From contig OY997588.1 in NCBI GenBank assembly GCA_963921825.1, positions 54,692,803 through 54,756,802 of the forward strand: a DNA stretch of 64,000 nucleotides. Direction: 5' to 3'. The notes under the pieces are model-generated. The model saw only the letters and a program-made list of their open reading frames with translations, was not told where the DNA came from and did no database searches. The translations under genes and the position numbers were made by a program. The stretch is from Erodium maritimum. Its lineage: Eukaryota > Streptophyta > Magnoliopsida > Geraniales > Geraniaceae. Shown piece by piece: positions 20,709-51,102 of this stretch. Numbering within the stretch: the first letter of the stretch is position 1; each line of letters begins with the position of its first letter.

Positions 20709-21170
20709 TTTGTGTCTTGAGTGACCATGAGAGCCCGTGTTTTACTGTTGGTATCTTGGGTGGCCATGAGTGCCCGTGGGGTTGTTGAACTCGTGTCTTT
20801 ATTGTTGGTGTGTCTTGGGAGGTCGTGAGTGCCCGTGGGGTTGTTGAACCCGTGTCTTTATTGTTGGTGTGTCTTGGGAGGCCGTGTGCGCCCGTGGGGT
20901 TGTTGACCCCGTGAGTTATGGTTGATGTGTCTTGGGAGGCCGTGAGTGCCCGTGGGGTTGTTGAGCCCGTGAGATATAGTTGGTGTGTCTTAGGAGGCCG
21001 TGAGTGCCCGTGGGGTTGTTGAGCCCGTGAGTTATGGTTGGTGTGTCTTGGGAGGCTGTGAGTGCCCGTGGGGTTGTTGAGCCCGTGAGTTATGGTTGGT
21101 GTGTCTTGGGAGGCCGTGAGTACCCGTGGGTTGTTGAGTCCGTGTTTTACCGTTGGTGTCTTGGGTGGCC
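20709..21170 (+). repeat. Minisatellite in gypsy A 5' LTR (about 58 bp unit)
   Basis: Seven to eight units around GTGTCTTGGGAGGCCGTGAG and GGGGTTGTTGAGCCCGTGAG. It explains small ORFs in this stretch. The matching array in the 3' LTR is at 39040-39460. Confidence 0.9.
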
Positions 21171-21246
21171 ATGTTTTACCTTTGCTGGTGATTGTGATTG
21201 TGCTTGCCCGAGGTTAGTGACCCGACTGTGTGTCGGGAAGTGGTGC

Positions 21247-21481
21247 GAGTTCCGGTAGGTTACGAGCATTCTTTGGCTGGCCTAACCAAGTTCGAGTCCC
21301 GGTAGGTTACGAGCATTCTTTGGCTGGCCTAACCAAGTTCGAGTCCCGGTAGGTTACGAGCATTCTTTGGCTGGCCTAACCAAGTTCGAGTCCCGGTAGG
21401 TTACTCGCATTCTTTGGCTGGCCTAACCAAGTTCGAGTCTCGGTAGGTTGTGAGCATTCTTTGGCTAGCCTGATCCGTGTT
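21247..21481 (+). repeat. 47-bp tandem repeat in gypsy A 5' LTR
   Basis: Five nearly identical 47-bp units (GAGTCCCGGTAGGTTACGAG ... CTAACCAAGTTC). The same array occurs in the 3' LTR at about 39550-39795, with one unit more. Elements B, C and D lack it, so it arose in the A lineage. Confidence 0.92.
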
Positions 21482-24881: not shown

Positions 24882-27365
24882 GTCTACCCCCCTTAAAGGA
24901 ATTTCGTCCAAGAAATTTAAAACGGACGTACCTCGGGAGTCGAACAGGCCGGGATACTTCGCGCGAACATCGTCCTCGCGTTCCCACGTCGACTCAGCCC
25001 CGTGATGTTTCCACTGCACTCGGACCAAGCGGATAATCTTGCCTCCCCGTAGGACCTGTTCCCGCGTTTCCATGATCCAAACCGGCTGCTCCTCATAGGA
25101 GACATCGTCAGCCACCTCTATATCGGTCCACTCAATGACGTGGGAGGGGTCTGCGTTGTACTGCCGCAACTGGGATACGTGGAAGACGTCATGGACTCTC
25201 CCAAGCTGCGGTGGCAACGCCAGACGATAGGCCACTGCTCCCACTCTGCCCAAGATCTCGAACGGGCCTATGTACCTCGGGGCCAATTTTCCCCCGCTGC
25301 GTCTGAACCGCACAAGCCCCTTCCTCGGGCTCACCTTCAGGAACACGTGACCCCCGACTGCAAACTCAAGAGGTCGACGTCGCCTGTCGGCATAACTCGT
25401 CTGCCGACTCTGCGCGGTCCTCAACCGATCGCGTATCAGCGCGACCTTCTCTGTCGTCTCTCTGACAAGATCTGGCCCTAGCAGGCTCTTGTTCCCCACC
25501 TCTGCCCAACACACTTGCGATCGACACGGCCTCCCATACAACGCTTCGAACGGTGCCATCCCGATACTAGCGTGGAAGCTGTTGTTGTAGGCGAACTCGG
25601 CTAACGGTAGGTGGGTCTCCCAAGATCCCCTGAAGTCCAGAACACATGCCCGCAGCATGTCCTCCAATATGTGGATATTGCGCTCGGACTGACCGTCTGT
25701 CTGGGGATGATGTGTCGTACTGAGTAGAACCTTGGTCCCCAATGCCTTCTGTAGACTCGGCCAAAACCTGGACGTGTAGCGGGGATCCCTGTCAGACACT
25801 ATCGACACCGGGACCCCATGGAGACGCACTATCTCCTGAACATACAAGCCGCTCAACTTGTCGACCGGGTCTGTCATCCTCATAGCCAGGAAGTGGGCCG
25901 ACTTGGTCAACCGGTCGACTACCACCCACACGGCGTCGTTTCCCTTTGGCGATCTCGGTAGTCCACACACGAAGTCCATCGTAATGTGCTCCCACTTCCA
26001 CTGAGCGATCGGTAGTGGCTGTAATAATCCCGCTGGACGTTGATGCTCGGCCTTCACCTGCTGACAGACGAGGCATCTCGACACAAACTCTGCGACTGCT
26101 CTCCTCATACCGCACCACCAGAAGTGTCGTCTGAGGTCACGGTACATCTTGGTGCCCCCCGAGTGCACTATAAGACGCGAATGATGTGCCTCTCGTAACA
26201 CGGCGTCTCTATAGTTAACCGGCACAAACAGCCCCCCACGGTACCGTAACCCCCAATAAGTACTATCCTCCCAGCCCACCACCTCGTCACCCCTGCCGAC
26301 TCTCTCGCGGATCTCTGACGCCTCGACGTCCTCCGACTGCGCCTCCAACACTTGGGCAAGCAGTGAGGGCTGAGCCAACAATGAGCACATGGCCACGCCA
26401 TCAGTAATCTCCTCTAGCTCGAGTCCGAACGTGCTCAGCTCCCCCATCATGCCCCACTCTCGGACTGATATGCTGGCGAGACTCGGAACCGACTTCCTAC
26501 TCAAGGCGTCGGCGACCACGTTCGCCTTGCCCGGATGGTAGTGTAGCTCGAAGTCGTACTCCTCGAGTAGTTCCATCCACCGTCGCTGACGCATGTTCAG
26601 ATCTCGCTGGGAAAATATGTACTTGAGGCTCTTGTGATCCGAGAACACCTGAAACCCCTCGTCATACAGATAATATCGCAAGCTCTTTAGCGCAAACACG
26701 ACTGCTGCTAGCTCCAAGTCGTGGGTGGGATAGTTGCGCTCGTGCGTCTTCAACTGCCTGGAGCCATAAGCCACAACTCTGCCCAACTGCATCAGTACGC
26801 AGCCCAGTCCCTCTCCGGACGCATCACAATAGACATCATAACCGACCCCTCGCTCGGGCACCACTAATATTGGAGCGGTAGTCAGCCGAGTCTTCAACTC
26901 CGTGAATGCCCGTTCACAGTCCTCCGTCCACACAAATCTGGTTCCCTTGCGCGTCAGCAGAGTCATCGGCGCGGCTAGTCGCGCAAAATCCTGTACGAAT
27001 CGCCGATAGTAGCCAGCCAACCCCAGAAAGTTGCGGATCTCAAAGACACTCGTGGGCCGTGCCCATTTCGAGACCGCGTCGATCTTCGACGAATCGACCA
27101 GGATACCATCACGGGACACGATGTGGCCGAGGAATTTCACCTCAGAGAGCCAGAACTCGCACTTCTCCCGGTTGGCATATAGCTGGTGCTCGCGCAGTAG
27201 TGTCAGAACAACCCTCAGATGTGACTTATGCACCGCCTCGTTCTGCGAATATATCAGGATGGCGTCCACAAACACCGCCACAAACTGATCTAGGTACGGC
27301 CGGAAGATGTTGTTCACCAGGTCCATGAACGCTGCATGTGCCTTCGTCAGTCCGAATGGCATCAT
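24825..27365 (-). CDS. Gypsy B pol, C-terminal part: RT palm, RNase H, integrase, chromodomain-like tail
   Basis: An uninterrupted 846-codon frame. Residues 1-110 continue the RT ([18 protein letters not shown] at the start, [12 protein letters not shown]). The catalytic FxDD box reads FVDAILIYS: the second Asp is Ala, so the polymerase is probably dead. Residues about 170-290 are RNase H ([32 protein letters not shown]). About 390-440 holds the integrase zinc finger ([10 protein letters not shown] ... CLVCQQVK), and about 465-620 the core with its three acids ([29 protein letters not shown]). About 680-745 has [13 protein letters not shown], followed by the chromodomain-like end ([31 protein letters not shown]). 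The start at 27365 is only the first Met after the last upstream stop. The true polyprotein begins upstream. The stop lies about 57 bp inside the 3' LTR. Confidence 0.9.
24882..24899 (-). promoter_or_regulatory. Gypsy B polypurine tract
   Basis: On the minus strand TCCTTTAAGGGGGGTAGAC lies directly upstream of the 3' LTR, the plus-strand priming site of reverse transcription. Element A keeps the related AAGGTGGGTAGAG at the same place. Confidence 0.85.
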
Positions 27366-28480
27366 CAGGAACTCGTAATGCCCATAGCGTGTCCGGAACG
27401 TAGTCTTTGCGACGTCCCCCTCACGGACTCACAACTGATAATAACCGGATCGCAGATCGATCTTCGAGAATTAGGTCACCCCTCTCAATTGGTCGAACAA
27501 GTCATCGATCCTCGGCATTGGGTATCGGTTCTTCACCGTAACCCGGTTCAGCTTCCGATAATCTATACACACCCGTAGCTCTCCACTCTTCTTCTTCACG
27601 AAGAGTGCTGGTGCTCCCCACGGTGATACACTCGGACGGATGAACCCCTTCTGCTGAAGCTCCTCTAGCTGACGCTTCAGCTCAGTCAACTCTTCCGGCG
27701 CAAACCTGTAAGGCGCCATCGATATCGCCGGTGTCCCCGGCACTAGGTCAATCACGAACTCCACCTCACGAACCGGTGGCAACCCGCTCAACTCCTCAGG
27801 AAAGACCTCGGGGAACTCGCATACCACTCTCGGTAACTCTCGGCTCTGCACAACCGGTACTTCCTCCTCTACGGACAACGCCGACAAGAGGACCCCACTC
27901 TTACTCCCCAGCACACACGTCACCTTCGTACCACCCACTGACACTGTCACTCGTCGCCTGTAGCAATCGATATTGGCTCGGTACCTCGACAGCCAATCCA
28001 TTCCCAAGATCACATCGAAGGTAGTCATCCCCAACACGAGAAGATCACCAGGGCAAGGACAGTCTGCGACTCTAATCTCGCAGGCACGACACACCCTAGT
28101 CAAAGATACACCACCCCCAACTGGGTGTCCAGGCATAGGGGTGGACTCAACGGCTCTAAGCTCAACCCCAACCTCTCAGCACAACCCAACGAAATAAAAG
28201 AGTTCGACGCCCCGGTATCAAATAAGAATAACGCCCATAAATGATACAATAAACACGTACCCTGGATGGTCTCGCGGTACGTGCTAGATCCTGGGGCTCT
28301 GGAGTCGGTGACTGCATACACTCTCCCCTTCAAGGCCTGATGCCTCTGACCCGGCGCACTGGCTGCTGAATACCCGTGACTCTGCTGCTGTCTCGGAATC
28401 GGTGCGCTCGTAGAAGGCTGTGACAACCTCGGCTGCTGACTCTGTCGAGGGCGACCCCTGGGCGACTGTACTGTCCGCAA
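27366..28480 (-). pseudogene. Gypsy B protease and RT N-terminus (broken)
   Basis: 28480 down to about 28110 carries a Ser/Gln-rich linker and the aspartic protease with an intact active site (LFLFDTGASNSFI, near 28200). A one-base indel in the C-run near 28110 shifts the frame. The protein continues from 28136 as [22 protein letters not shown], then the linker [15 protein letters not shown] and the RT N-terminus ([60 protein letters not shown]). Two in-frame stops follow, at about 27469-27471 (GVT*FSKIDL) and about 27430 (GYYQL*VREGD), before the open frame at 27365. These breaks separate gag-protease from the rest of pol. Confidence 0.9.
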
Positions 28481-29721
28481 CTGCTACGGTCGCTGCGCTG
28501 ATGCCGCTCCCAACGGCTCACGACACCATGCCATAGTGTGTCCAACCCGGCCGCAACGGAAACAGCTGGTCTCGTCGGCTCTCGACCCCGAGCCCTAGCC
28601 TGTGCGGCTAGTCGCTGGTAGTACCGTGGGCCCTCCCTTCGCCAGACAGTCTCGCTGTAAGTGGCCTAGCTGCCCGCAATGATAGCATGACGGCCTCCTC
28701 TCTGAGGCGACTGGCCCCACTGATGCTACTGACCCCTACTGTCTCGATCCACCCTGATGATGCGGTGGTCGGAAGAACCCCGTGGTCCTCTGTCTCCGCG
28801 AGTCGGACGGCCCTGTAAAGCTGGTCGGCCACTGTCGAACCTCGCGGGTCCTGGCCGCATCGCGAAAACCCTGCACCACCGTCGCTGCGGTGTCCACGAG
28901 ATCTGTATGCTTCCGCAGTCTCAAGGCGAGGACCCTGTCCCGAATCACCGGTCTCAGTCCCCCTGAAACCGCAGCCAACGGTTCAGCTCGGTAGTCACCA
29001 TCCCCGGCTCGAATCGGGTCAAGGCCGTGAATCTGGCCTCGTATTCCGCCACAGTCGACCCTCCCTGCTCCAGGTCTAGAAACTACCGATGTCGCTCCAG
29101 CCGAGCCGACTCGGGAAAGTACTGTGCCAGAAACACCTCCTGGAAGATGATGTAGTCGTATCCGACCATGTCCTTCACACGCCCCCACCAGTGGTAGGCG
29201 TTGTCTCTCAGCTGATGGGCCGCGAAGGACACTCGGCGACGGCCATCCTCGACACCCGATGTATCCAGGTCTCGCGTGACCTGCTCTAGCCACCTCTCGG
29301 CTAGGTCGGGGTTCGGCTCCCCGACAAATGTAGGTATCCCGAGCTTCAGGAAGTCTACTAGTGCTCGGGATGTATGATCCTCTGTCTGAACGGCCCTCAC
29401 CGGGACCGCGACTGCCTCTGGTGCTGGTGAAGCCGACTCTCGGCTGGCGATGACCGCCACCAAACTCTGGACTGTCCTGGTCAACTCATACAGGGCAGTC
29501 ATAACGGGAGGGTGTGCGACCGGCGGAACGCTGGGTATGCCTGTAGACGGTCCCGCGTCGCTTCTCCTGTCTTCCCCGACAGGAGTCCCCTGCGCCTCCG
29601 CGTACTCGGCGGGCTCAACGGTTGGCACCCTTCCCGGTGTCCCCGCTGACCGTCCCCGCCGGCCTCGCGTGGGCGCCCGACCCCGTGTTCCCGCTGCTCG
29701 TCCTCGTCTACCGCGAGCCAT
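28481..29721 (-). pseudogene. Gypsy B gag (broken), two CCHC zinc knuckles
   Basis: The likely start is the ATG at 29721 (MARGRRGRAAG), after the long leader. An Arg/Gly-rich N-terminus is followed by the capsid-like retrotransposon gag domain (FLKLGIPTFVGEPNPDLAERWL, AHQLRDNAYHWW, FLAQYFP). An in-frame stop after ERHR (about 29081) and at least one frame shift near 28990 split it; GLRPVIRDRVLALRL continues in another frame. Two zinc knuckles are intact at codon level: CYHCGQLGHLQRDC (about 28645-28690) and CFRCGRVGHTMAWC (about 28520-28560). Gag would coat the RNA in the virus-like particle. This copy cannot make a full-length protein. Confidence 0.88.
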
Positions 29722-30012
29722 AGTCAGTATCCTCTGCACGTATACACGCAAACGTTCAATTTGCGAACTCAAATAAAGACAACAGTTCAAACACACTAAC
29801 GTTCATGCGGTCTACGCTTACTCTAGCGCGCTTATCACTAAAACGTCCCATCACTCACGCTATAATACTTTAAATAGTAGCATTAGTAACAGAAACCTCA
29901 AAGAGACCGCACCAACGTGCGCCAACCCACGCGGCGACAAACCTAACCGCACCACGAAATAACAACAACAGACAGAACGAAAACGAATCACTTGACCAGA
30001 CCGGCACACGAC

Positions 30013-31022: not shown

Positions 31023-33921
31023 TGTCAAGCCCCAATTTCAGTAAACCGAACTCGGGATGCGAACATTTAAAAACATAAAACACTTGAAACCTGTTTGAAT
31101 AAAAACTCAGGAATTTCCATTTAGTTATCAAAAATAATAGGATTTACAATACAAAAACGTCCCAACAAGTGGACAAGGTACAATACCCGTCACTAGACTC
31201 AACAAAATAAGGACCAGACTCCGCTCCTAGCTCCACAAGCTTCAAGAGCTAACCTAGTCTGTCCGGTGATCAGTACCTGTAGGAAAAGCAGCTAGGGGTG
31301 AGCGTTCGCTCACCACCACGAATAACAGACTGACTATGGCATAATTAGCAGATAAAGTTAGTAACACCAAAACCAAACCCAACACCGGGACTACAGTCCC
31401 CAACTCAAGTACTCAACTGACCCACAACCCGTTACTTTCCTCAACAGACTCAACACTTGATAAAGTAATGTAGACCCGACGCAACTATCGACGACCTCCT
31501 CCAAGGACATGACAAAAGACTACACAACACTAAACAAGATCACAAAGGATCGCACACCAGCTGCTCAGTAACCAATCTCAAACCAGGTCAAGGATCGACC
31601 TATCGCAATTCCTCGACATGAAGTCGGATCAGGCTGTCGACCTATCGCAATTCATCGACACGAAGTCGGATCAGGCTGTCGACCTATCGCAATTCATCGA
31701 CACTAAGTCAGATCAGGCTGTCGACCAATCGCAGTTCATCGACACTAAGTCGGATCAGGCTGTCGACCTATCGCAATTCATCGACACTAAGTCGGATCAG
31801 GCTGTCGACCTTTCGAACTCACAATTTCAGGTAACCACAATCACAATCACAGGCAAGTTCAAACACACAGGCACTCAAGGCCACTCAAGACACCTCAATA
31901 GTCAAGATTCGGGTTCAACAACCCCCACGGGCACTCACAGCCACCCAAGACACCTCAACAGTCAAGACTCGGGTTCAACAACCCCCACGGGCACTCACGG
32001 CCTCCCAAGACACACCAACGGTCAAGACTCGGGTTCAACAACCCCACGGGCACTCACGGCCACTCAAGACATACCAACAGTCAAGACTCGGGCTCAACAA
32101 CCCCACGACACTCACGGCCACCTCAAAACACCAACAGTAAAACACGGGCACTCACGGCCACCCAAGCCACCAATTTAACTAACACGGGCTCTCATGGCCA
32201 CCCAAGACACCAACAATCAAATACGGGCTCTCATGGCCACCCAAGAATGAATTTAAACAATCAACCTCCGGGCATGGTCATATGCCTCCAGTAATTCTAA
32301 TATCGCTAAGTTCTCTGTTCCTACGCCACTACTAAGTGTCACATGATTTTCTCATAAACGCTACAATCCCGTAACATTCCTTTCTAATATTTAAATAAAC
32401 CTACTCAACCCACGACACCCCGGTGTCACATGCAATTCTACTGTTAACTTTCCCTAATCAGGACCGAGATCCGGCTACTTTTCCCTACCTCGTAAAAAAC
32501 TCCAAAAGCGCTCCACTAAACCTCGATGTGATCTCAGTCACTCGCCGAGCTTCCCTTTGCCTCGGTCCGTAGCACGATCTAAAAGAACACAAAATTAAGA
32601 CACTTTTAACGCCCAAACGTAACCCCGATAATGCCGATCACACCCAAACTTCCCAATTACTCGACATTGTCGATAAAGGACCCGTAAAGGCCCGATTGCC
32701 CAACCTGGCGAATCTGCCCGGGTTTTATAAAAGGCCTTCCGGGGCTCCAAAAGCCCCCGTTTCCGTTTCTACGGCCTTAGAATAGTTCAAGGAGCCCAAT
32801 GCACTTGACGGAATCGAATTCCGACTTCCGATTCAATTAATTAACGTTTAAAGTTTCTAAAACCCGTTAATTACAACTTCTCCAATTTAATTCCAAATTT
32901 CGATTCGGTTAAGGATAATTGGTCCGGGGAACGTTTTAAACCTCCCGAACACTAAACCCGATCACCCGAGCACATGGGCCCCACCTGGCCCACTTGGCCG
33001 TGGGCCCTAGGGTTCCAATGGGGCTCGGCCACCATGGTGGTGGTCGGCTCTAGGTCTGGCCAGCCACCCCCTATGGTGGCCGGAGCTCCTCCCGAGCTCC
33101 CGGTCGCCGGAAAACGTTCAATCAAACCTCCAAACACTTCTAAAACGTCTCCAACACTTCCCCAACCTCAATACAACCCTAACCCATAGTTTTACACAAA
33201 ACCCTAACTTTCAAAAGTTAATAAAACGATGATCGGTTTAGGTCTTACCAACGAGGAAGACGAGGGGAAGAAGTTTGCTTCTTGCCTTGAAACGATCCAA
33301 TGATTGAAGACGTGAATAGTGCCACAAACCCTAACTTCTCTCTCTTTTCTCTCTTCTTCTCCTTCTCTCTCTAAAACTCTCTTCTTTTTCACAAACTAAC
33401 ACATTTTTCCTTTTTTTTCTTTTTGATTAAGTGTGGCCGGCCACCCCTCTTGTCCCCTCTAGTTTCCCCCCAAAACTAACACCACCTCAATTAGGACAAG
33501 TGTCAAGGTGGGTCCCACACCTTTTGGAAAATATCTACTTGATATTTTTCAATCAGATTCTCGAAAATCGGACGTTTCGGGACCCCGAACGGGCACTTTT
33601 CCCAAGAAATTACGAAACTTGACGGGCTACACGGAAACGGCTCAACTAAGACCGCTGCGACGACGGCTAAGATTTTTGGATCCAAAAAGGTCCACGAATG
33701 GACCAAAACGTCGCTCGGTTGACTTTTCCTACGAAAAGTCAACATTTCCCAAAATGATCAGAAAGTTGCCCTGAGTCCCCCAGAACTCATTTTGGTCGAT
33801 AACGGGGTCAAATTAAGTCCGGTATGACCATCGGGGTCTACTTAGGTTAAGTGTCTCAAATTTTTTAAATTTTCCTGTTTTTCGTAGGTTTGACTATCGT
33901 TGACCAGAAGTGGTTATTACA
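31023..33921 (-). repeat. Gypsy B 5' LTR (2,899 bp)
   Basis: TGTCAAGCCCC... to ...GTGGTTATTACA in plus-strand reading. Its first bases differ from the 3' LTR by one C/A change (TGTCAAG against TGTCACG). It ends at the AGGGG target duplication. The 42-bp repeat is at 31597-31815 and the 55-60 bp minisatellite at about 31865-32240. Confidence 0.95.
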
Positions 33922-37264: not shown

Positions 37265-40200
37265 TGTAATAACCACTCCCGGTCAACGCCAGCCAAACCT
37301 GCGAAAAACAGGAAAATTTAAAAATTTTGGTCAAGCACGTAATTAAACCTAAAATTGACTCCGAGGGTCATACCGGACGTAAGTTGACCCTGATATCGAC
37401 CAAAGTGAGTTCCGGGGGACTCAGGGCAACTTTCTGACCAATTTGGGAAATGTTGACTTTTCGCTGGAAAAGTCAACCGAGCGACGTTTTGGTCCATTCA
37501 AGGACCGTTTTGGATCCTAAAAGCTTAGCCGTCGTCGCAGCGGTCTTAGTTGAGCCGTTTTCTTTTAGCCCGTGAAGTTTCGTAATTTCTTGGAAAAAGT
37601 GCCCGTTCGGGGCCCGAAACGTCCGAATTTCGCGAATCTGATTGGAAAATATCTTCTAAATATCCTCCCAAAAAGGTGTGGGACCCACTTGACACTTGTC
37701 AAATAAGTGGTGGTGTTAGGTTTATTGGACAAAACAAGACAAGACTATTGATGGTTAGTTTTACAATTTAAGTATTATATTTGATTTTTTAAAACAAAAC
37801 AAAAGGATGCCAAATGAGATGTCTCGGCAAAGTTAGATGAAAATGAGAGTTTTAGAGAGAGAAAGTGGAGAGAGGAAAGAGAAGCAGAAAAGGGAGAAAA
37901 AGAGAAGAAAGTTTGGGGGTTTTGTCATTTCTCGATCATCCGACAGGTGGATCGTCTCAACGATAGAAGAGTCGAGTTCACACCGTCATTCTCTACGGTG
38001 AGCACCTAATCGATTTTCGTTTTGTTAAGTTCTAATTTTAGGGTTTGAGTTTAAACGATTCAAATACGGTTGGGTTTTGGTTAGAATTGTTTTAAAGATG
38101 AATGGTTGAGGTTTGGGGTTCGTTAGGAACGTTTTGGGGCAAAAAGGGAATTTTTCCATTGTGGCCGTGTGGGACCCACATGCCCGGGTATCGGGTTTTC
38201 GTGTTCGGGTGGTTTAGGACGTTCTCCAAGTCGTTAATCCACACCCGGATCGAAATTTGGAATTAAATTGTGAAAGTTGGAATTTCGGGTTTAGAAACTT
38301 TAAACGCGAATTAAATCGCTCGGAAGTCGGAAATTGATTCCGTCGATTGCGTTGGAACCCTTAAATTATTCTAAGATCGTAGAAACGAAAACGGGAATTT
38401 TCGGATCCCCGGAAGGGCGTTTCCAAAACCCGGGCAGATTCGCCATGTCGGGCGAATCGGGCCTTTCCGGGTCCAATATCGACAATGTCGAGTAATCGGG
38501 GAGTTTGGGAGTGATCGACATTGTCGGGGTTACTTTTGGGCGTCAGGTTTATTAAAATTCAGCATTATGCCTGCAAGCTTAAAAGCGTTTAAAATTGTGT
38601 TCTTTTAGATCGTGCTGCGGACCGAGGCAAAGGAAAGCTAGGCGAGTGACGGAGATCACGCCGGGGCTTATTTGGGCACTTTTGTAGAACACGCACGAGG
38701 TAGGGAAAAGTAGTCGGATCTCGGCCCTGACTAGGGAAAGTTAAGAGTAGAATTGCATGTGACACCGTTGTGTCGTGGGTTAAGTAGGTTTATCGAATTA
38801 GAAAGGCATGATACGGGAACGTAGCGAATATTATAAAAGCATGTGACACTTAGTAGTGTCGTAGGAGAAGAGAACTTATCGATGTTAGAATTACTGGAGG
38901 CATACGACCATGCCCGGAGGTTGATTGTGAACTTATCGATATTAGGAGTACTGAAGGCATATGACAATGCCCGGAGGTTGATTGTGAAACTACTGATATT
39001 AGGACTGTTGGAGGCATCGGTTATGCCGGAGGTTTATTGTGTTTTTGTGTCTTGAGTGGCCATGAGAGCCCGTGTTTTACTGTTGGTATCTTGGGTGGCC
39101 ATGAGTGCTCGTGGGGTTATTGAACCCGTGTCTTTATTGTTGGTGTGTCTTTGAAGGCCGTGAGTGCCCGTGGGGTTGTTTAACTCGTGTCTTTATTGTT
39201 GGTGTGTCTTGGGAGGCCGTGTGCGCCTGTGGGGTTGTTGAGCCCGTGAGTTATGGTTGGTGTGTCTTGGGCGGCCGTGAGTGCCCGTGGGGTTGTTAAG
39301 CCCGTGAGTTATGGTTGGTGTGTCTTGGGAGGCCGTGAGTGCCCGTGGGGTTGTTGAGCCCGTGAGTTATGGTTGGTGTGTCTTGGGAGGCCGTGAGTGC
39401 CCGTGGGTTGTTGAGTCCGTGTTTTACCGTTGGTGTCTTGGGTGGCCATGAGTGCCTGTGGAGTGTTGAACCTGTGTTGTTGCTGTTTGTTGAACTTTGC
39501 TTGTGATTGTGATTGTGCTTGCCCGAGGTTAGTGACCCGACTGTGTGTCGGGAAGTGGTGCGAGTCCCGGTAGGTTACGAGCATTCTTTGGCTGGCCTAA
39601 CCAAGTTCGAGTCCCGGTAGGTTACGAGCATTCTTTTGCTGGCCTAACCAAGTTTGAGTCCCGGTAGGTTACGAGCATTCTTTGGCTGGCCTAACCAAGT
39701 TCATGTCTCGGCAGGTTGTGAGCATTCTTTGGCTAGCCTGATCCGTGTTTGAGTCTCGGCAGGTTGTGAGCATTCTTTGGCTAGCCTGATTCGTGTTCGT
39801 GTCGTTGGAGGAGGTCGTCAATGGTTGTGTCGGGTTTACTTTACGAGTTTGAGGTTGAGTCTGTTGAGGAAGGTAACGGGTTGTGAGTGTGACAGGTCGA
39901 CCGCCTGGCCTGAGTGGTTCGGCAAAGCGCGTGATTGAGGGAGCTTTCTGAGCAGCTGGTATGCGATCCGTTGTGATCTTGTTTGGTGTGCGATCCTTTG
40001 TGATATTGTTTGGTGTGCGATCCTTTGTGATCTTGGGTGTGCGTGGTGGTCTTTTGAGCCCTTGGAAGAGGTCGTGATCGTTGTGTCGGGTCTATTTTAC
40101 GTGTCCGAGTGTTGAGTCGGCTGAGGAAAGTATCAGTGTGTGAGTGTCGGTCGGGTTACTTGAGTTTGGGGATGGTGATCCCCGGTGTTGAGTTGGTTGT

Positions 40201-43056: not shown

Positions 43057-44026
43057 GTGATATTAGAGACATGTTACCTTCGGTTTTTCTTGTTTATGTT
43101 TCGGTTTTTGCTTGATCTCATCCTTGAAAATGTAATATTGATAGTTTTTCAAATCTCACATTTTTGAATAAAATTGTATTTTTCGGGACACGAGAGCGAG
43201 ACTCTCGGGGAGCCAAACCCGTGACCAGATAAGACTCCGTTTGAATGAGCTAGGCCGAGCCATGGCCTTGCATGGCTGGAACTACGGGACCAAACCACTT
43301 AGTTTATCATAAGGTTTTTATAACCTTCTCAATGAAATCAAAAATCAAATATTTAAAATTTTCAATTTTGAACGATTTCATTAAACCGAGCAGTAAACAA
43401 TTTTTGAAAATTGGAAATTAATTAAAATTGTAAATTCGCATGCTATGTGATAACATGCTTGATTCATAACACGTTGTGTTATGTGATGTTGGCATGGTGC
43501 ATATAATAGCCCTGAGCTCGAATTAGTTATTTATCTCTTTTTCCACGGTTTGTGTACCGTTAGTGACAGTGTGCAACTATTTTTTGAGGTCTGATCGTCG
43601 CACCACTAAATTGTAACATTATTCTTTCCCGACCTGCGAGTCGTACATTTGATTATAATCTTTTTCTCAAGACAAAGATCGGGACAAGATGGATCGTTGG
43701 AGGCTTCTGTAGTTGTCATCGACTTGGAGTCAATGGAACTCAAGAAGAGAGTTGGAGTTAGTTTAGCGGGAAATTATATGTGCGTTTATTCTTTATCCTT
43801 GGTTTAATTTTGCATGAGTAATTCTACCTGTTTTAGATGTGAGTGGATGGTGTCCTACCTACATAGCTCGATTAATTGGCGAGTCTCTGTTCAGATTGAT
43901 CGAGTGAATCAACGATCTTGGTTTTAGATTCTAAAAGTTTAGAATCGATTGGTTGGTGTTTGAACTTGATCTTCATAAAATTTATTCATTTTACTAGTTA
44001 AATTTTCTTTTTTTTGTGTAGAGGAA

Positions 44027-44890
44027 ATGGCAAGTTCGTCAACGAACAATAGTTTGTCGTTAAAAACCATGCTTGACAAGATCAAGCTTAATAGGACAAA
44101 CTATCTAGACTAGGACATAAATTTGAGAATAATCCTCAAATATGAACACAAAGAATATGTCCTAGACAAGGCTATCCCTCAAGAGCTACCTAGTAACGCC
44201 ACTAGGGCCGGTAATGATACATACCAAAAGCAGCTTAGCAATTCTATTGATGTGGCGTTTATTACGCTGGATTGCATGAAGAATGAGCTCTAGGAGCAGT
44301 TCATGGAGCATTCTCATGACCCTTATACCATGATGGGATTGATGAAGGGTATATTCAAGGAAAGCGCATGTATCAAAAAGTACAATGTCCTTAATGAACT
44401 ACTTCTTGCAAGATGTTAGAAAAGGAAGCTCCGTGGGTCCTTATGTCTTGAAAATGAAGGGGCGTCTTGAACATCTTACTAGACTAGGTCTTAAGATAGA
44501 AAACGAGATGAAACCGGATATGGTTATACGCTCCCTTCCTCGTACATATGCTGAGTTTGTCATGAACTATAATATGCACGATATAGACAAGACTATATCA
44601 GAGTTACATGGAATGCTAGTAACTGCTGAGAATAATATCAAGGATCAGAGATCTAGGTATATTCTAGTGGTCAGAAAAGGAAACAATTTCAAGAAAGGAA
44701 TTATCAGTTTCTAGGGAAAAAACCCTGCGCACTTGGCGGGAAAGATAAGACAACCAAAGACTCCTAACCCTCCTAAGAACAGGGATACCTCAAGGAAGGC
44801 TAAGGAGGCAGAGGTTGCTTGCTTCTACTACCAGCAGCCTGGACATTGGAAACAGTATTGCTAGAAGTTCCAAGATGATCTGAAGAAGGG
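44027..44890 (+). pseudogene. Copia E gag remnant, 5' part
   Basis: Starts at the ATG at 44027 (MASSSTNNSLSLKTML, DKIKLNRTNYLD). A Trp codon has become TAG at 44111, a second stop follows at about 44291, and the frame shifts near 44390. It continues in another frame with GSSVGPYVLKMKGRLEHL, RSLPRTYAEFVMNYNMHD and ISELHGMLVTAE, all typical of copia gag (UBN2-type). The zinc knuckle reads CFYYQQPGHWKQYC (about 44820-44862), with the second Cys changed to Tyr. The gag is cut at 44890 by the chimeric element. Confidence 0.88.
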
Positions 44891-45205
44891 TGTTACGAGT
44901 CAATTATGCAATAGATCGGTTATTAGAAATAATTGGGCCTTTGTCTATTTTAGTTGGGCTTGTGTTATAGATTGTAACTAATGGGTCTAAGCCCAAACTC
45001 TAGTTCTTACATTGTATTCTCTACAAAAGAGACGCTGCTCTCATTTGGGAGGACATGAATGAAAACATCAATTACTATCTCTCTCTATAGCTCTGTCTCT
45101 CTTCTCTCCCTCTCTTCAACCTCTCTTCTTCCAATCTCTACAATTCTTAACCCTAAATTCTACATCTCTCTATAATTCCTTTTCTATCAATTTAGGGCTG
45201 TAACA
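44891..45205 (+). repeat. Chimeric element 5' LTR (315 bp)
   Basis: TGTTACGAGTC to TTTAGGGCTGTAACA. It includes a CT-rich stretch (about 45085-45160). Paired with 48651-48965: five substitutions, no indels. Confidence 0.97.
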
Positions 45206-45206
45206 C

Positions 45207-45221
45207 TGGTATCAGAGCCCC
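45207..45221 (+). promoter_or_regulatory. Chimeric element primer binding site
   Basis: TGGTATCAGAGCCCC, one base after the 5' LTR; complementary to plant initiator tRNA-Met. It shows that this is a bona fide retrotransposon backbone and not a gene flanked by chance repeats. Confidence 0.95.
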
Positions 45222-45238
45222 TTTCTAGGCTCAATCTG

Positions 45239-47821
45239 ATGGGTGAAATTTTTTTCCCTCCAGCTACAAAAATGGCGATTCAAGACATCAAGGAATCACT
45301 TATTAGTGTTAAGATTCAAATGGATGAAGTTGTTGACAAGCTAAAGGCCTTGCTTTTCAGGTTTCTAGACCCGTCTTGTAAGTCTTCTCTGGCAGTTCCA
45401 TCTCCACCTGTTTTTGCTGCAAGTTTGGGTAAAGATCATGTTCCAAAATCAGAGATTGTGTCTGTCATTTCCGAGTTTGATGATGTATTAGCAACTCAAG
45501 AATTGGATGAAATTGAAAAAATGCCTAAAAGGGTTTTGGCTGAGTGCCAAATGCTCACTTCGGAAGGAGATTTTTGTGAAGCACACAAGGTGTTCGACAA
45601 TATGCCAATGTCACAAACAGTGGGTTATTTCAAGGTATGCTCAAAACCACCTGAATTACAATTGTGTGTTCTATCTAAAGTTGTTCTTGAAATGGTTAAA
45701 TGGCCTACTGGTATTGGCACAAAGCAAGTAATTAAGTTCATAAAAGAAGATTATAGATGTGTACTTGGACTGATAATTGATGAAAATGTATTAAAGCTGA
45801 CTTGGGGTTTGATGAGTAGTGTGGAAATGGGTAGTTCAGTTTACACCCAATTTCTTATTGAGACTGTTGGGTGGATGTTCAATGCAATATTACCGGAAAT
45901 GGGGAACAATTTTTCGACTACTTTTTTTGGTTGCTCCCTTATACTACGAGATGTTGATCATGGTAGCATGGTGGGAGGTAATCTTGAAATTTCTTATGCA
46001 TGCTGTTCACATTTAGAGATGTCAAAAGGTATAGAAAGCCATACCAGAACTCTAAACTCTCCAGAAGCTGTATCTGATAGGTGCCTGCATGTGAATAAAT
46101 TTGACTACTCTGAAAGTTTCTCATCACAACATTTTGTGGGGAGCTGTGATCTCTCATCTCAAGCAGGTTCAGAGAGTAGCACAGATGGAAGTAATGTACA
46201 TGACGAATCAAGTTCTGAATCAAAGCTCTTGGATGAAGGTGTTGTTATGGAAGGTCCTTACTTAAATGAGCTGGAGTTCTTAGTTCATGAGACAAACACA
46301 AGTGATAAAATGTGTGAGGAAAAGGATCACGCTGAATTGATAAAGGACATTCTTGCTGACTGGTATGTTTCCACCAACAATGTTCTATACAAGTGGATGG
46401 CAAAAGGAAAAGAGTTGGCCGGAAAGGATATCTCATTCACCCTCATTGGTATTCGTCAACGTCGAATGTATCTAAAGCCTCTACATGTCTCTGAATGGGT
46501 TGATACAAATAGGGTATTTGATCTAGTTGAGAGGGATTACGCATCTTGCCTTGATTTGCTTTCCAAGGTACATGGTCTATTTGAATCCGTCAGCGGAGAA
46601 TTTATCTACAGAACCTTGTTGGCCAGTTGTGTTGCTATTAACAATGAAGCGAAAGTGCTTAAAAAAGTGAAGAACTTAGGATATCCATTCTATGCGTTTG
46701 CTTGCAATCATATGCTTCTTCTTTACATTTGCTTGCAAAGAGTTGTTCTTAGTCTAACCTTGCTTTCAGAGGGGAGACCAATTATTGATGAGATGTGTAA
46801 GGTTGAAGAGGAAGCGACAAATAACCCCACTAACCAATCTCTGTTTAGGCACCCACCTACTAGTATTCGAGTTGCGCCGAGTATTAAAAATGACTACTAC
46901 ACAAACTTTATGGACTGGGGTAAACAGAATGCCCTAGTTGTTGCTCTAGGGTCATATTTTTGCCTCTGGAATGCGAATGTACACTACCTGGTTCGAGTTG
47001 AAGGCGAGAATGATTACCCAACTAGTATAGCCTGGTCTGATGATACCAAATTGGTTTCAATGGGTTTTATGTGCTCAATTGTTCAGCTTTGGGACCTTGA
47101 GGCTTCCAAACTTATGAGGAACCTAGAAGGTCGTACAAAAGGGATAGGAACAATGGTGTGGAATGATAGAGTTCTCGCATCAGGAAGCGAAGACAAATCA
47201 ATTATTAGTCAAGATGTTCGAGCACAAAATAGTTGGACAATAATTGTACAAACACACGCAAGAGAAGTGTATGGGTTGACGTGGTCGAGTACAGTCAATG
47301 TTTTGGCAAATGGTGGCAGTGACAATCTCATACATATATGGGAAACTTTCAAGGTGAACACATCCAATTTTTTATTTAGTTTTCATGAGTACTGTGATAC
47401 CGTCAAGGCCCTTACTTGGTGTCCATATCATTCTCATATTCTTGTCTCTGGTGGTGGCACAAAAGATGAATATATCCATGCATTTCTCTCGAAGACACTT
47501 GCATATGCCAATTCTCAGAATGAGCATATATGTAGTAAGTTATTTTCTTTGCTTGGAGATACAAAAGCCCCTCTTTATGTGACTGTCTTCGCTGCTATCA
47601 CAATGGGTCTGATTTATGTTGGTTCCTTTGATGAAGAGGCACCTCAAAAAATCATATTTACATTAGTGGACAGAAGTGAGCCAGATTTGGAGGAGCCTCT
47701 AACTCCCTTGCTGCCTCTTGGCCTTGATCTTATATATTGTAGGAAGCAGGAAAGTATTGACGCCACAACCAAAGTGTCCAAGACTTTCAATGCAAAGATT
47801 AGAAAATATCTTTTACACTAA
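45239..47821 (+). CDS. Chimeric ORF of captured host gene fragments (PPR / CDC20 / RPN1), 860 codons
   Basis: Opens at the ATG 33 bp after the 5' LTR and stops at a TAA (47819-47821). Residues about 93-128 look like a lone PPR repeat (SEGDFCEAHKVFDNMP). About 290-497 match plant P-type PPR proteins of the At1g80270/PPR596 kind (QRRMYLKPLHVSEW, ERDYASCLDLLSKVHGL, YRTLLASCVA, LGYPFYAFACNHMLLLY). About 541-753 match the CDC20/Fizzy WD40 propeller (YYTNFMDWGKQNALVVALG, WNDRVLASGSEDK, SGGGTKDEYI). Residues 754-860 match the repeat region of proteasome subunit RPN1 (ICSKLFSLLGDTKAPL, GLIYVGSFDEEAPQ, ATTKVSKTFNAKIRKY). The remaining stretches are unidentified. Each piece is partial: CDC20 lacks the N-terminal C-box part and the end of the propeller. 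No product function is claimed; it may be untranslated. Confidence 0.85.
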   Translation: MGEIFFPPATKMAIQDIKESLISVKIQMDEVVDKLKALLFRFLDPSCKSSLAVPSPPVFAASLGKDHVPKSEIVSVISEFDDVLATQELDEIEKMPKRVLAECQMLTSEGDFCEAHKVFDNMPMSQTVGYFKVCSKPPELQLCVLSKVVLEMVKWPTGIGTKQVIKFIKEDYRCVLGLIIDENVLKLTWGLMSSVEMGSSVYTQFLIETVGWMFNAILPEMGNNFSTTFFGCSLILRDVDHGSMVGGNLEISYACCSHLEMSKGIESHTRTLNSPEAVSDRCLHVNKFDYSESFSSQHFVGSCDLSSQAGSESSTDGSNVHDESSSESKLLDEGVVMEGPYLNELEFLVHETNTSDKMCEEKDHAELIKDILADWYVSTNNVLYKWMAKGKELAGKDISFTLIGIRQRRMYLKPLHVSEWVDTNRVFDLVERDYASCLDLLSKVHGLFESVSGEFIYRTLLASCVAINNEAKVLKKVKNLGYPFYAFACNHMLLLYICLQRVVLSLTLLSEGRPIIDEMCKVEEEATNNPTNQSLFRHPPTSIRVAPSIKNDYYTNFMDWGKQNALVVALGSYFCLWNANVHYLVRVEGENDYPTSIAWSDDTKLVSMGFMCSIVQLWDLEASKLMRNLEGRTKGIGTMVWNDRVLASGSEDKSIISQDVRAQNSWTIIVQTHAREVYGLTWSSTVNVLANGGSDNLIHIWETFKVNTSNFLFSFHEYCDTVKALTWCPYHSHILVSGGGTKDEYIHAFLSKTLAYANSQNEHICSKLFSLLGDTKAPLYVTVFAAITMGLIYVGSFDEEAPQKIIFTLVDRSEPDLEEPLTPLLPLGLDLIYCRKQESIDATTKVSKTFNAKIRKYLLH

Positions 47822-47827
47822 AGAGAG

Positions 47828-48763
47828 TTGAATATTCAACGAGCAGTTCCTTCAACTCTTGGTTTTCTTTGCATAAATTCATATACTTGGGTTCAACAAG
47901 TTTCTAAAGGTACGTTCTATGTACTGCATTGGAATACAAGTGTTTTTCATCATTATGAAGTTTGTGGTAGTCATACAGAGGGTATTAAAGTAATGGTTCC
48001 CATGAAAAAATCACTCTTGAAGGATATATTATCAACATACCATACTGTTGCTCATATTTATGTGGTACTTGATTTACTTACTGAAGAAGATGCTAGAATT
48101 CTGATATCAGGCACGATTTTTCTTTATTTGGACCCCTGTGAAGAACCTGAATTATGTGTGCTTATTAGGTGGTGTTTGAATGAGTTATCACTTGATTTGG
48201 GAATCGGTATGGATGTCAACTCTAAAACAAATGATGTTGCCTTGGGATGGTCAGCCGCTGTTGATTCACCTATATCGAGTATGTTGTTAAAAACTTATAT
48301 GGTCCAATGTGTTCTAGAACTGGAAGAAAGGGAGATGTGTTGCGGGGATGATTTTTTCTTTCCGAAGTATACTGGTAGTGTGATTGAAGATGCCACCCAT
48401 GACTATATGGTGATTCAGAAATTATTGGAATTGGATTGTTTAAGTTTATTGAAACTTACTGACAATGTGGGAAGGAATGCTAGCATGAAAAGAACTGAAA
48501 TTATAAACAGGGAGCTGGAGCAACAAGCAATTGGAAGAACATATATTGGTTTTATGGTTCATAAAGTGTTTGTTTCTGTCGAATTGTTCTATGCCTTCCA
48601 TGGATTGCACCAGATTCTTGAGGACAAGAATCATTTGAAGGAGAGGGCAATGTTACGAGTCAATTATGCAATAGATCGGTTATTAGAAATAATTGGGCCT
48701 TTGTCTATTTTGGTTGGGCTTGTGTTATCGATTGTAACTAATGGGTCTAAGCCCAAACTCTAG
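47828..48763 (+). pseudogene. Continuation of the chimeric ORF after an in-frame stop (311 codons)
   Basis: Same frame as the 860-codon ORF, separated only by TAA and two codons. Around the stop the text reads LLH*RELNIQRAVP, which lines up with RPN1 ...LLQYGEQNIRRAVP, so the stop stands where RPN1 has Tyr. The frame was once continuous (about 1,175 codons). About 70 RPN1 residues are missing between KIRKY and LLH. After TLGFLCIN the RPN1 match ends. The remaining roughly 280 residues (GIKVMVPMKKSLLKDIL, DLLTEEDARILISG, TEIINRELEQQAIG) are not recognised. The last 37 codons are read from the 3' LTR. The listed start is a TTG and not a real initiation codon. Confidence 0.75.
48638..48650 (+). 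promoter_or_regulatory. Chimeric element polypurine tract
   Basis: AAGGAGAGGGCAA directly before the 3' LTR; it also codes for the last internal codons of the chimeric frame. Confidence 0.85.
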
Positions 48764-48965
48764 TTCTTACATTGTATTCTCTACAAAAGAGACGTTGCTC
48801 TCATTTTGGAGGACATGAATGAAAACATCAATTACTATCTCTCTCTATAGCTCTGTCTGTCTTCTCTCCCTCTCTTCAACCTCTCTTCTTCCAATCTCTA
48901 CAATTCTTAACCCTAAATTCTACATCTCTCTATAATTCCTTTTCTATCAATTTAGGGCTGTAACA
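48651..48965 (+). repeat. Chimeric element 3' LTR (315 bp)
   Basis: 98.4% identical to the 5' LTR by direct reading. One difference (TTATCG here, TTATAG in the 5' LTR) removes a stop and lets the internal frame run 13 codons further, to 48763. Confidence 0.97.
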
Positions 48966-48970
48966 AAGGG

Positions 48971-49170
48971 CAGTGGGACTACGCCTTCATCATGTATTTA
49001 ATTTGTAGATCTACATCTCTCTACTTCCAAATATTCATGGGTATTGGATACCAGGGCTGAATCTTACATTTGTACTAATGTGTAGTCGTTGGAAAATAGG
49101 AGACGCTTGAAGAATCACGAAGTGGACCTCAGAGTGGGGAACAATATAAGAACGACTGTTGTAGGATATA
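48971..49170 (+). pseudogene. Copia E gag/protease remnant, 3' part
   Basis: After the chimeric element, copia text resumes: a linker (GSGTTPSS), the protease active-site region (WVLDTRAESYICTN, where the family has DTG) and LRVGNNIRTTVVG. A stop lies between. The similarity fades at about 49170. Confidence 0.75.
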
Positions 49171-49953
49171 TAAAGAATTCCATGTCACCTCATTGTACTA
49201 AAGTCAAACATCAAATCATAACCCACATATATGAAACGTATCAGATATTAACAGTTTCACCTTATTAATTCTCAAAATGTATCAAAATCTGTTAAGTGTG
49301 ACTAACGCCGTGAAATGTCAGTCACATGTTTGTCACGTTCTCTAAAACTTTCCTAAAATGGAAACTTCATCTTTTAATTTATTGTCAAATCACAACCATT
49401 AACTATCAACTTTTCTTGTTACTCACTTAACGGCCGCTAGACTTGCGGACATAAAATGCAATAGTTGCTGGTCAACGTTACTACATGACAATTTACATTT
49501 GCTTAGTTATGATTTAGCAATAAACAAAAGGTGTGCGTGCAGACATGGAGTAACCCATTATTCAAAAGAGTGTGTTACACTTTGGAAAATAATACTTCTT
49601 CTCTGTAAGATAGAACCCAAAAAAGCCTCCCGTTATTCTACCAATTTGATAGTCACATTTTAAGTTCTCAAAAGTGTTTTGAGAACTATAAGTGCTAGCA
49701 CACTTTTTCGAGACTTGTTTGCGTGGATACGTATAGAGGGAGAATCCCGTTGGAAGCGTCTCTATCATAAAAGGTACGGAAACGATTCTAATCAAAGGTC
49801 CCCGACTCGAACCAACCACCGAAACTACAAGAGGTAATTCTTATTGGTTAATCGAATTACATGGATCCGACTTTTGGGTTTTAGATTTTATTTTTATTTT
49901 CCGCTGCTTTATGTATGTTAAAACCCAAGACTTCCCTACTACGAGATCCAACA
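49171..49953. other. Junction region: possible MULE-MITE fragment and LTR 3' end
   Basis: 49190-49556 ends in GACATGGAGTAACCC, matching the terminal repeat of the MULE-MITE at 54191-54683, and shares the upstream text CGTTACTACAT.ACAATTT. Its other end (ATTCCATGTCACC, about 49183) is only a weak match and no TSD is found. From about 49570 to 49953 the text resembles the U5 end of a copia-type LTR (TTACATGGATCCGA, TTCCGCTGC, ending CGAGATCCAACA), related to the 60540-60635 LTR end. The start of that LTR was not found. No protein-coding gene is seen. Confidence 0.45.
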
Positions 49954-51102
49954 GAATGGACTTAAAAGTCCGCACTTCTAAAGTGCTGATACGCGTTTCT
50001 CGTTTATGTAGCCTAAACGATAGTGCCATAATATATTTTGGTCTAAATTGTTGAATTTAGAACTCTTGGTATTAACATTATAAATAGAGCTTGAGGCATT
50101 GTTACCCATATCTATTATGTACAATCCTTTGACCATGTTTCCACAAGCATAAAACATGTCATTGCATAGAATATTGAAAACTCCATTTCCAATATCAAAA
50201 TTATATCCTTCGGTGTATAACGCGGATACAAATATAATGTTCCTAGTAAAATAGGTTTTCAATATAAATTGTTTAGTACAAAACAAGGCCACTTGGTAAA
50301 TGAAGACTTATGGATCCTATAGTAATCTCCACAACTTTGAGGTCCACTCCGTTCTTCTCCAAGCTTCTCCTACCTTCCATTTACTACACATCAGTTCATA
50401 TGTGAGATTCAGCTCTGGTATCCAATATCCATGAATCTTTGGAAGTAGGGAGATGTAACTCTTTAAAGTTAATATCTGATGAAGGGGTTGTCCCACTGCC
50501 ATTCTTCATATCATCTAGGGATTTTCTCCAATCCAGTTTCCAATGACCAAGCTTCTAGCAATAGAAGCAGCCATTCTCATCATCCTTAGCCTTCCTTGAG
50601 GACCCCCGTTCTTAGGAGGATTAGGAGCGATCAAGTGTCTCATATTTCTCGCCACGTGGGCAGAGGCCTTGCCCTTGCCACTACCAGTCCCCATCTTAAA
50701 CTAGATCCGTTTCTGACTATTAGAATATCCTTGGATTCCAAATCCTTGATATTCTTCTCATTATTTAAAAATATGTCATGTAACTCTGATATGGTGTTGT
50801 CCATATCGTGCTTGGGATAGTTCATGGTGAACTCAACATACGAACGAGGAAGGGAACGTAGAACCTCATCTACTACCATCTTTGATTCTATCTTAAAACC
50901 AAGTCCATTAAGATGTTAGAGATGACCCTTCTTTCCAGAACATGAGGGATAGCCTTTTTAAGGACGTATTCTTTGCGTTTATGTTTGAGGACCACCATCA
51001 AATTTCTCTACTAGTACAACTAATTTGTCCTATTAAGCTTGACCCCGTCAATCATGGTTTTAAATGACATTCTACTGTTTACTTTTGCCATTATATCTAC
51101 AC
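49954..51102 (-). pseudogene. Copia F gag/protease/GAG-pre-integrase remnant
   Basis: From right to left: a gag start with MAKVNSRMSFKTM (about 51094), LRSLPRSYVEFTMNYPKHDMD and ISELHDIFLNNEKNIK in the gag body, a zinc-knuckle-like stretch near 50550, protease (HGYWIPELNLTYELMC in a shifted frame; WIPELNL stands where the family has WVLDTG), and the pre-integrase block (FTRNIIFVSALYTEGYNFDIG, MGNNASSSIYNVN, LWHYRLGYINEKRVSAL). It is closely related to the 1-2850 element, whose pre-integrase text is nearly the same. Several stops and frame shifts; non-functional. Confidence 0.85.

Follow-up and report, generated by a model that had tools for sequence, protein, structure and literature searches.

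A family of LTR retrotransposons in Erodium maritimum with a common head and tail and host-gene cargo shuffled between members

Gene-capturing LTR elements and the Erodium locus

The maize element Bs1 is a long terminal repeat (LTR) element with a chimeric gene derived from three host genes (proton ATPase, xylan endohydrolase, and beta-1,3-glucanase), as described in the available text of PMC13317346, and its cargo is reported to consist of exons only (PMC4717578, available text). The element examined here occupies positions 44891-48965 of a 64,000-nucleotide stretch of Erodium maritimum DNA (GenBank assembly GCA_963921825.1, contig OY997588.1; the whole stretch is referred to as the window), and it resembles Bs1 in being an LTR element with unrelated host-gene fragments joined in one chimeric frame. 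An initial annotation of the window, made from its letters, had regarded several unrelated genes in one frame as unusual; a multi-gene hybrid open reading frame (ORF) is already known from Bs1. The more unusual fact, which that annotation missed, is membership of a family in which a head and tail are common to the relatives, cargo sets are many, and modules are shuffled between members. Bs1 also carries gag sequence, whereas the present analysis detected no gag. In the literature searched, no description was found of a family that combines a shared head and tail with interchangeable host cargo in one frame; most subscription papers and one original Bs1 report lay outside that search, so the absence of such a description is unproven.

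Other described systems share single properties with the Erodium element. The available text of PMC4717578 presents soybean GmaRetroS15, a TRIM, as a small LTR element that is non-autonomous and contains fragments of three genes, of which one comprises five exons without introns and another is a 5' untranslated region, and describes no family-wide open frame or common head. In pepper, approximately 72% of retroduplicated NLR genes lie in non-autonomous LTR elements that lack gag or pol, as does the element in the window, and depend on machinery supplied in trans; the captured NLRs are reported to be under purifying selection (PMC5664825, available text). Here, in contrast, short unrelated housekeeping-gene pieces are fused to a shared head, and the ratio of nonsynonymous to synonymous substitution (dN/dS) between copies is mostly 0.5-1. 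A survey of rice and sorghum lists 672 and 1343 LTR-captured genes, respectively, and its available text describes no multi-gene mosaic family (PMC3726574).

Structure and cargo of the window element

The features of the element and its insertion site are as follows (window coordinates):

44346-44714, plus strand: insertion target, a decayed Copia gag (PF14223, E 4.1e-8)
44886-44890 and 48966-48970, no strand: left and right copies of the target-site duplication (TSD) AAGGG
44891-45205, plus strand: 5' LTR, 315 bp (TGTTAC...GTAACA); a stop-free frame starts in its last 30 bases
45206-45219, plus strand: primer binding site (PBS) CTGGTATCAGAGCC, directly 3' of the 5' LTR
45239-45736, plus strand: family head, with its ATG at 45239 and about 165 codons common to relatives, ending in WPTGIGT
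46268-46765, plus strand: probable P-type PPR fragment (At1g80270-like), residues 365-530
46856-47536, plus strand: CDC20/Fizzy WD40 fragment, residues 561-787, its end overlapping the RPN1 match
47498-47809, plus strand: RPN1 (proteasome subunit) fragment, residues 775-878
47819-47821, plus strand: TAA, the only in-frame stop, within a 5-codon gap between two RPN1 pieces
47825-47875, plus strand: second RPN1 remnant ELNIQRAVPSTLGFLCI, in the same frame 3' of the stop, aligning to the relative L052
48296-48650, plus strand: 3' block, 92.7% identical to the relative L010, ending in the family tail ILEDKNHLKERA (48614-48649)
48638-48650, plus strand: polypurine tract (PPT) AAGGAGAGGGCAA
48651-48965, plus strand: 3' LTR, 315 bp

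The paired LTRs, 5-bp TSD, PBS, and PPT identify an LTR retrotransposon, and recomputation reproduced the young element of the initial annotation in all of these parts, including the five differences between the LTRs (LTR positions 62, 79, 145, 157, and 209). The age of roughly 0.6 My proposed from these 5/315 differences depends on the assumed rate. The PBS is of the initiator tRNA-Met type; TGGTATCAGAGCC follows the 5' LTR in seven other elements (L009-L011, L052-L055), and GGAGAGGGCAA lies directly 5' of the 3' LTR in the window element. In agreement with the initial annotation, Pfam detected no gag or pol family in either ORF at E up to 1 (ORF1 and ORF2), nor in the remaining five interior frames at E up to 0.01, so the element lacks the gag and pol of an autonomous LTR retrotransposon. 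The same Pfam scans of the ORFs and interior frames rule out an ordinary gag-pol or a single host gene as the content of the interior. TRIMs are very short elements without coding space, whereas the interior here measures 3445 bp and is open for 881 codons. When the flanks are joined across AAGGG, they form one dead Copia gag-protease frame with stops, the protease part having been read by eye.

The interior contains one sense frame with a single stop in 1148 codons, compared with 54 and 119 stops in the other sense frames and 50-68 in the antisense frames. The claim that a sense frame fills the interior thus stands with one amendment, in that the TAA at 47819-47821, which had not been mentioned, divides the frame into stretches of 881 and 313 codons, of which the latter extends into the 3' LTR. 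The CDC20 fragment was confirmed by PF24807 (E 3.6e-58, residues 567-787, 2.4 bits below the Pfam whole-domain cut-off) and by human CDC20 (E 5.6e-43), and the RPN1 fragment by spinach RPN1 (8amz_Z, E 7.5e-35, 106 residues ungapped); over 104 residues the latter aligns to spinach without a gap at 61.5% identity. From the overlapping match ends, the join between the CDC20 and RPN1 pieces is placed near 47490. In L052, RPN1 runs through 194 residues in a row (spinach 495-688, ungapped, E 7.9e-62), with 69 RPN1 codons where the window element has 5, the stop among them; the window copy therefore has an internal, frame-keeping RPN1 deletion, and its only stop sits there.

The PPR assignment is less firm, since the fragment has no Pfam or PDB match and was aligned to an At1g80270-type protein sequence not taken from a database. 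Against this protein, ORF1 scores 127 bits (86/244 identities, 25 gap positions), and the PPR segment alone scores 117 bits, compared with 24.6 for the reversed segment and 27.7 for the best of 500 shuffles; a PPR origin of residues 365-530 is likely, not proven. No protein-database match was found for residues 1-560 at E<=1 among 7992 candidates scored, and three pattern matches among viral contigs yielded none that was confirmed. Unrelated host fragments do share one frame, but the description of the whole coding space as fused host-gene fragments is too strong: a head of ~165 codons, conserved across the family, opens the frame, and no source matched residues ~188-309 or the greater part of the 276 codons that follow the stop. 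A stretch of 27 residues at 48197-48277 resembles plant ketol-acid reductoisomerase (E 1.1) and is a possible further host fragment that was not counted.

Common ends and shuffled cargo among the relatives

Searches of the window's own genome (763 Mb in 40 contigs) recovered 33 LTR matches, including the window's own two, and beyond these no site exceeds 77% over more than half of the window LTR. With the head (45242-45736) as query, 108 matches were obtained at E<=1e-3, the window's own included; all 150 first-look candidates were scored, and some matches are pieces of one copy. The 29 best head matches after the window's own show 43-58% protein identity. Nine LTR-paired elements were opened: the window element, L009-L012 (picked by LTR match), and L052-L055 (picked for long open frames). 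Head sequence is present in all nine (partial or with a stop in L012 and L052), PBS and PPT in eight (the window element, L009-L011, and L052-L055), and a tail like ILEDKN-LKE(R/K), with small changes, before the 3' LTR in seven (the window element, L009-L012, L052, and L053). Each of the nine is flanked by a 5-bp TSD (AAGGG, CCGTA, CCGAC, GTTTT, CCTTT, GATAA, TTTTA, CCTTG, and GAAGC), read from printed flanks, the left copy of the last, in L055, being cut by the locus end. Differences between LTR pairs, gap columns excluded (2, 64, 24, and 46, respectively), number 6/322 in L009, 10/311 in L010, 26/316 in L011, and 27/303 in L012; the values for L054 and L055 are 7/320 and 8/316. These last two elements (C6:57.92 Mb and C5:25.49 Mb) belong to the same subfamily. 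Their near-identical ORFs of 1017 and 1003 aa differ by 24 changes over 1003 codons, which shows recent copying of a mosaic whose frame is unbroken for 1000 codons.

The head ends in WPTGVGT in most aligned relatives. Eighteen heads were scanned singly and as a profile, and neither gag nor another known domain was found, which rules out a gag origin; profile columns 104-133 match synthetic PPR proteins weakly (best E 1e-4), and no stretch passes alone. The 18-head alignment has seven invariant columns, some of which are the W-P and G-T positions in WPTG-GT. At their N-termini the heads fall into two types (MELQ..LVGV and MMTQQD..IIAAMQ), both followed by the same WPTGVGT end, a pattern that suggests that the heads may recombine as well. 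In the ORFs of the relatives found by LTR match only (L016, L018, L019, and L020), gag-pol was not recognised by eye, and no domain search was made. In L017, the ORF at 3112-3759, immediately upstream of the match to LTR and head, reads by eye as gypsy reverse transcriptase and is possibly an insertion target, not a partner.

The collection of LTR copies to compare their cargo, proposed in the initial annotation, bore fruit in that the opened relatives carry different cargo. L009 carries a TRIP12-like E3 ligase piece (4.2e-15) and OXA1 (PDB 1.5e-4; Pfam 0.0016, below the cut-off); L010, GH77 (5.3e-11), an aspartic protease with a SapB piece (1.9e-10), and RPN1 (E 1.2e-14 in a two-sequence comparison); L011, CPN60 (PDB 1.6e-33, three stretches; Pfam 2e-6, below the cut-off); and L012, GH77 (2.1e-28) plus CDC20. 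PPR_2 (5.3e-28) accompanies RPN1 in L052, and ARC6 (2.5e-21) accompanies UTP14 (9.9e-6, below the cut-off) in L053, while L054 and L055 contain OXA1 (~1e-12), PMR5N (about 5e-6, below the cut-off), and the TFIIS central domain (6.8e-7 in L054, just above the cut-off; 2.4e-6 in L055, below it). Ten further ORFs, from loci with only ~1.5 kb past the head, were scanned as partial ORFs; among these, L035 contains beta-amylase and PMR5N, L051 OXA1 and PMR5N, L039 and L050 CDPK (the kinase end plus EF hands), and L046 PMR5N (6e-4, below the Pfam cut-off), and no host family was detected in the other five. In total, a host protein family was detected at E<=1e-3 in 14 of the 20 elements scanned, L046 only below the Pfam cut-off, and none was detected in eight other frames tested; in the frames tested, the cargo is sense-only. 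With regard to whether the cargo is exon-only, its alignments, made with proteins only, are long and near-gapless (e.g., the 194 residues of RPN1 in L052, or the CDPK piece of L050, in which 258 residues track calcium-dependent protein kinase 3 and the only gap is one residue long). With CDC20 and RPN1 in a single sense ORF, the window element has at least two unrelated host-gene fragments, as in Bs1, and the same holds for L052, L053, and L054.

Single modules recur in different company. RPN1 is found in the window element, L010, and L052 with different neighbours in each, CDC20 in the window element and L012, GH77 in L010 and L012, and OXA1 in L009, L051, L054, and L055. Similarity also varies along the elements: the window element and L010 are 87% identical in RPN1 DNA and 92.7% in the 3' 355 bp, compared with 71-73% in their heads; L010 and L015 have two common blocks (84% and 88%); and CDC20 of the window element and L012 is 74-77% identical. 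The RPN1 pieces of the window element and L052 agree against spinach at 31/104 residues, some of which may be the host's own, and with a synonymous divergence (dS) of 0.2 between them, one common capture is likely to lie behind both. The relatives thus share LTR ends, PBS, a ~165-codon head, and a short PPT tail, while the middle is a differing patchwork of host sequence in the sense frame, with single modules shared.

These observations bear on two alternatives. The lack of a further site above 77% over more than half of the LTR would be in keeping with a one-off capture in a single element, an idea that is refuted by relatives with the same head, tail, and design and to which almost no probability is assigned. 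Equally improbable is capture by a DNA transposon or an assembly chimera. Pack-MULEs and Helitrons also carry mixed gene fragments; Pack-MULEs have terminal inverted repeats, and Helitrons end without a TSD. The window element instead has LTRs and a 5-bp TSD, with no inverted repeats of at least 20 nt in 44000-50000, which rules out DNA-transposon capture, and the LTRs, PBS, PPT, and 5-bp TSDs of the LTR-paired members, the sense-only cargo, and the recurrence of the same design at independent places argue against both versions.

Open frame, codon constraint, and a possible origin

The relatives probably represent a trans-mobilised, Bs1-like family, in which host mRNAs are captured by template switching, modules are reshuffled, and the open frame is held more than the protein. 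As the missing gag-pol suggests, the RNA of these elements would be packaged and copied by the gag-pol of another element. Reverse transcriptase may switch onto co-packaged spliced host mRNAs, adding modules, and onto RNAs of sister elements, reshuffling them. Lineages with one open frame from just past the PBS to the PPT would spread best, perhaps owing to escape of the RNA from nonsense-mediated decay or to better export, translation, or packaging, and the cargo would serve mostly as open-frame filling whose amino-acid sequence drifts. The more specific proposal that the family is selected for the open frame as such, with a head that starts translation, host fragments as replaceable filling, and openness rather than protein conserved, is advanced tentatively, as plausible and somewhat short of probable.

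One sense frame of 871-1013 codons, covering 76-99% of the interior, is present in seven of eight measured elements, a sample that is biased because long frames were the criterion for choosing L052-L055, and the window element came from the initial annotation; among elements picked by LTR, the fair count is two open out of four (L009 and L011 open, L010 and L012 broken). A larger and less biased sample comprises 30 head loci selected on their head score, among them the window element, L010, L011, L017, and L054. Over ~1.5 kb past the head, the longest open frame has a median of 278.5 codons in the sense direction and 85 in the antisense direction, is longer in the sense direction at 28/30 loci, and reaches at least 200 codons at 20/30 loci in sense versus 1/30 in antisense. 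Median stops per codon are 0.028 in the head frame, 0.066 in the other sense frames, and 0.052 in antisense.

The same family could exist without selection for openness, host coding pieces being naturally open and long frames being leftovers of recent capture. This explanation, which we judge distinctly unlikely, is favoured by the two broken elements among the four picked by LTR, by the many head copies that carry stops, and by dN/dS near 1 in the tail and one cargo block. It is opposed by the several independent pieces in frame with the head in seven of eight elements (partly chosen) and by the far longer sense frames at 28/30 head loci. Two weaker points also oppose it: the RPN1 pieces of the window element and L052 are stop-free despite dS ~0.2 and 55-62% identity to spinach, with only about one stop expected, and heads at dN 0.34-0.52 are open in 5/5 compared, though these were chosen as open.

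Codon constraint across the family, estimated by NG86, is mild at most. Heads give dN/dS of 0.66-0.85 in the ten pairs of five, values that may shift slightly for L009 and L010, in which a small number of codons preceding the ATG were misaligned with respect to frame, and three RPN1 comparisons give 0.46, 0.52, and 0.71. The tail of the window element and L010 (118 codons) gives 0.99, with 5 synonymous and 21 nonsynonymous changes, and L054-L055 gives 0.66 on 24 changes. In the two L010-L015 blocks, dN/dS is 0.62 and 0.94, and the off-frame range of 0.49-1.26 indicates no clear frame-specific constraint; L010 has no stops in these blocks, and L015 has 2 and 1. A different possibility is that a protein made from the chimeric ORF, or from at least its head, works for the element (as a gag-like or RNA-binding factor) or for the host, as proposed for Bs1. 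This is rather unlikely: the head values of dN/dS, the seven invariant columns with W-P and G-T of WPTG-GT, and an ATG 33 bases after the 5' LTR are all consistent with a working protein, against which stand the lack of gag or a known domain in the head, cargo made of partial domains that differ between members, and the tail dN/dS of 0.99.

Trans-mobilisation with selection for openness must itself be set against several opposing points. No host family was found in 6/20 scanned elements (L017, L023, L025, L027, L034, and L048). The frames of L010, L012, and L015 are broken (that of L010 into 516 and 312 codons), and the long frame of L052 begins inside the head, its head match covering only residues 77-165. 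At only 7/30 head loci does the head frame contain at most three stops within the following 1.5 kb, a scarcity of near-intact frames that is expected of old copies, but also of copies without selection. Sense openness alone is no proof of selection, since host coding DNA is open in the sense direction; in favour of selection, however, drift does erode openness (at 0.1 substitutions per site, about 9 stops are expected in ORF1). Values of dN/dS below 1 in the head and RPN1 leave room for some protein constraint. In addition, neither a parent gene of the cargo nor a helper element was identified, the genome having been searched with the LTR and the head.

Elsewhere in the window, ORFs of 867, 234, 249, and 239 aa on the minus strand at 24825-29802 look, on reading by eye, like the parts of a Ty3/gypsy gag-pol that is split among several frames. 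Tandem-repeat blocks at 22534-23145 and 31595-32246 have identical or almost identical consensus units (42, 60, and 40 bp), as do those at 20537-21471 and 38872-39787 (57, 58, and 47 bp); the two distant block pairs are perhaps copies of one larger repeat-bearing element.

In the reviews consulted, Bs1 stands as a single example. A whole family of this kind, if true, would make LTR gene capture repeatable and open to study in one genome, including the sites at which switching occurs, selection for in-frame joins, and the need for a full-length translatable RNA in mobilisation. Such a family would, moreover, keep supplying chimeric ORFs.

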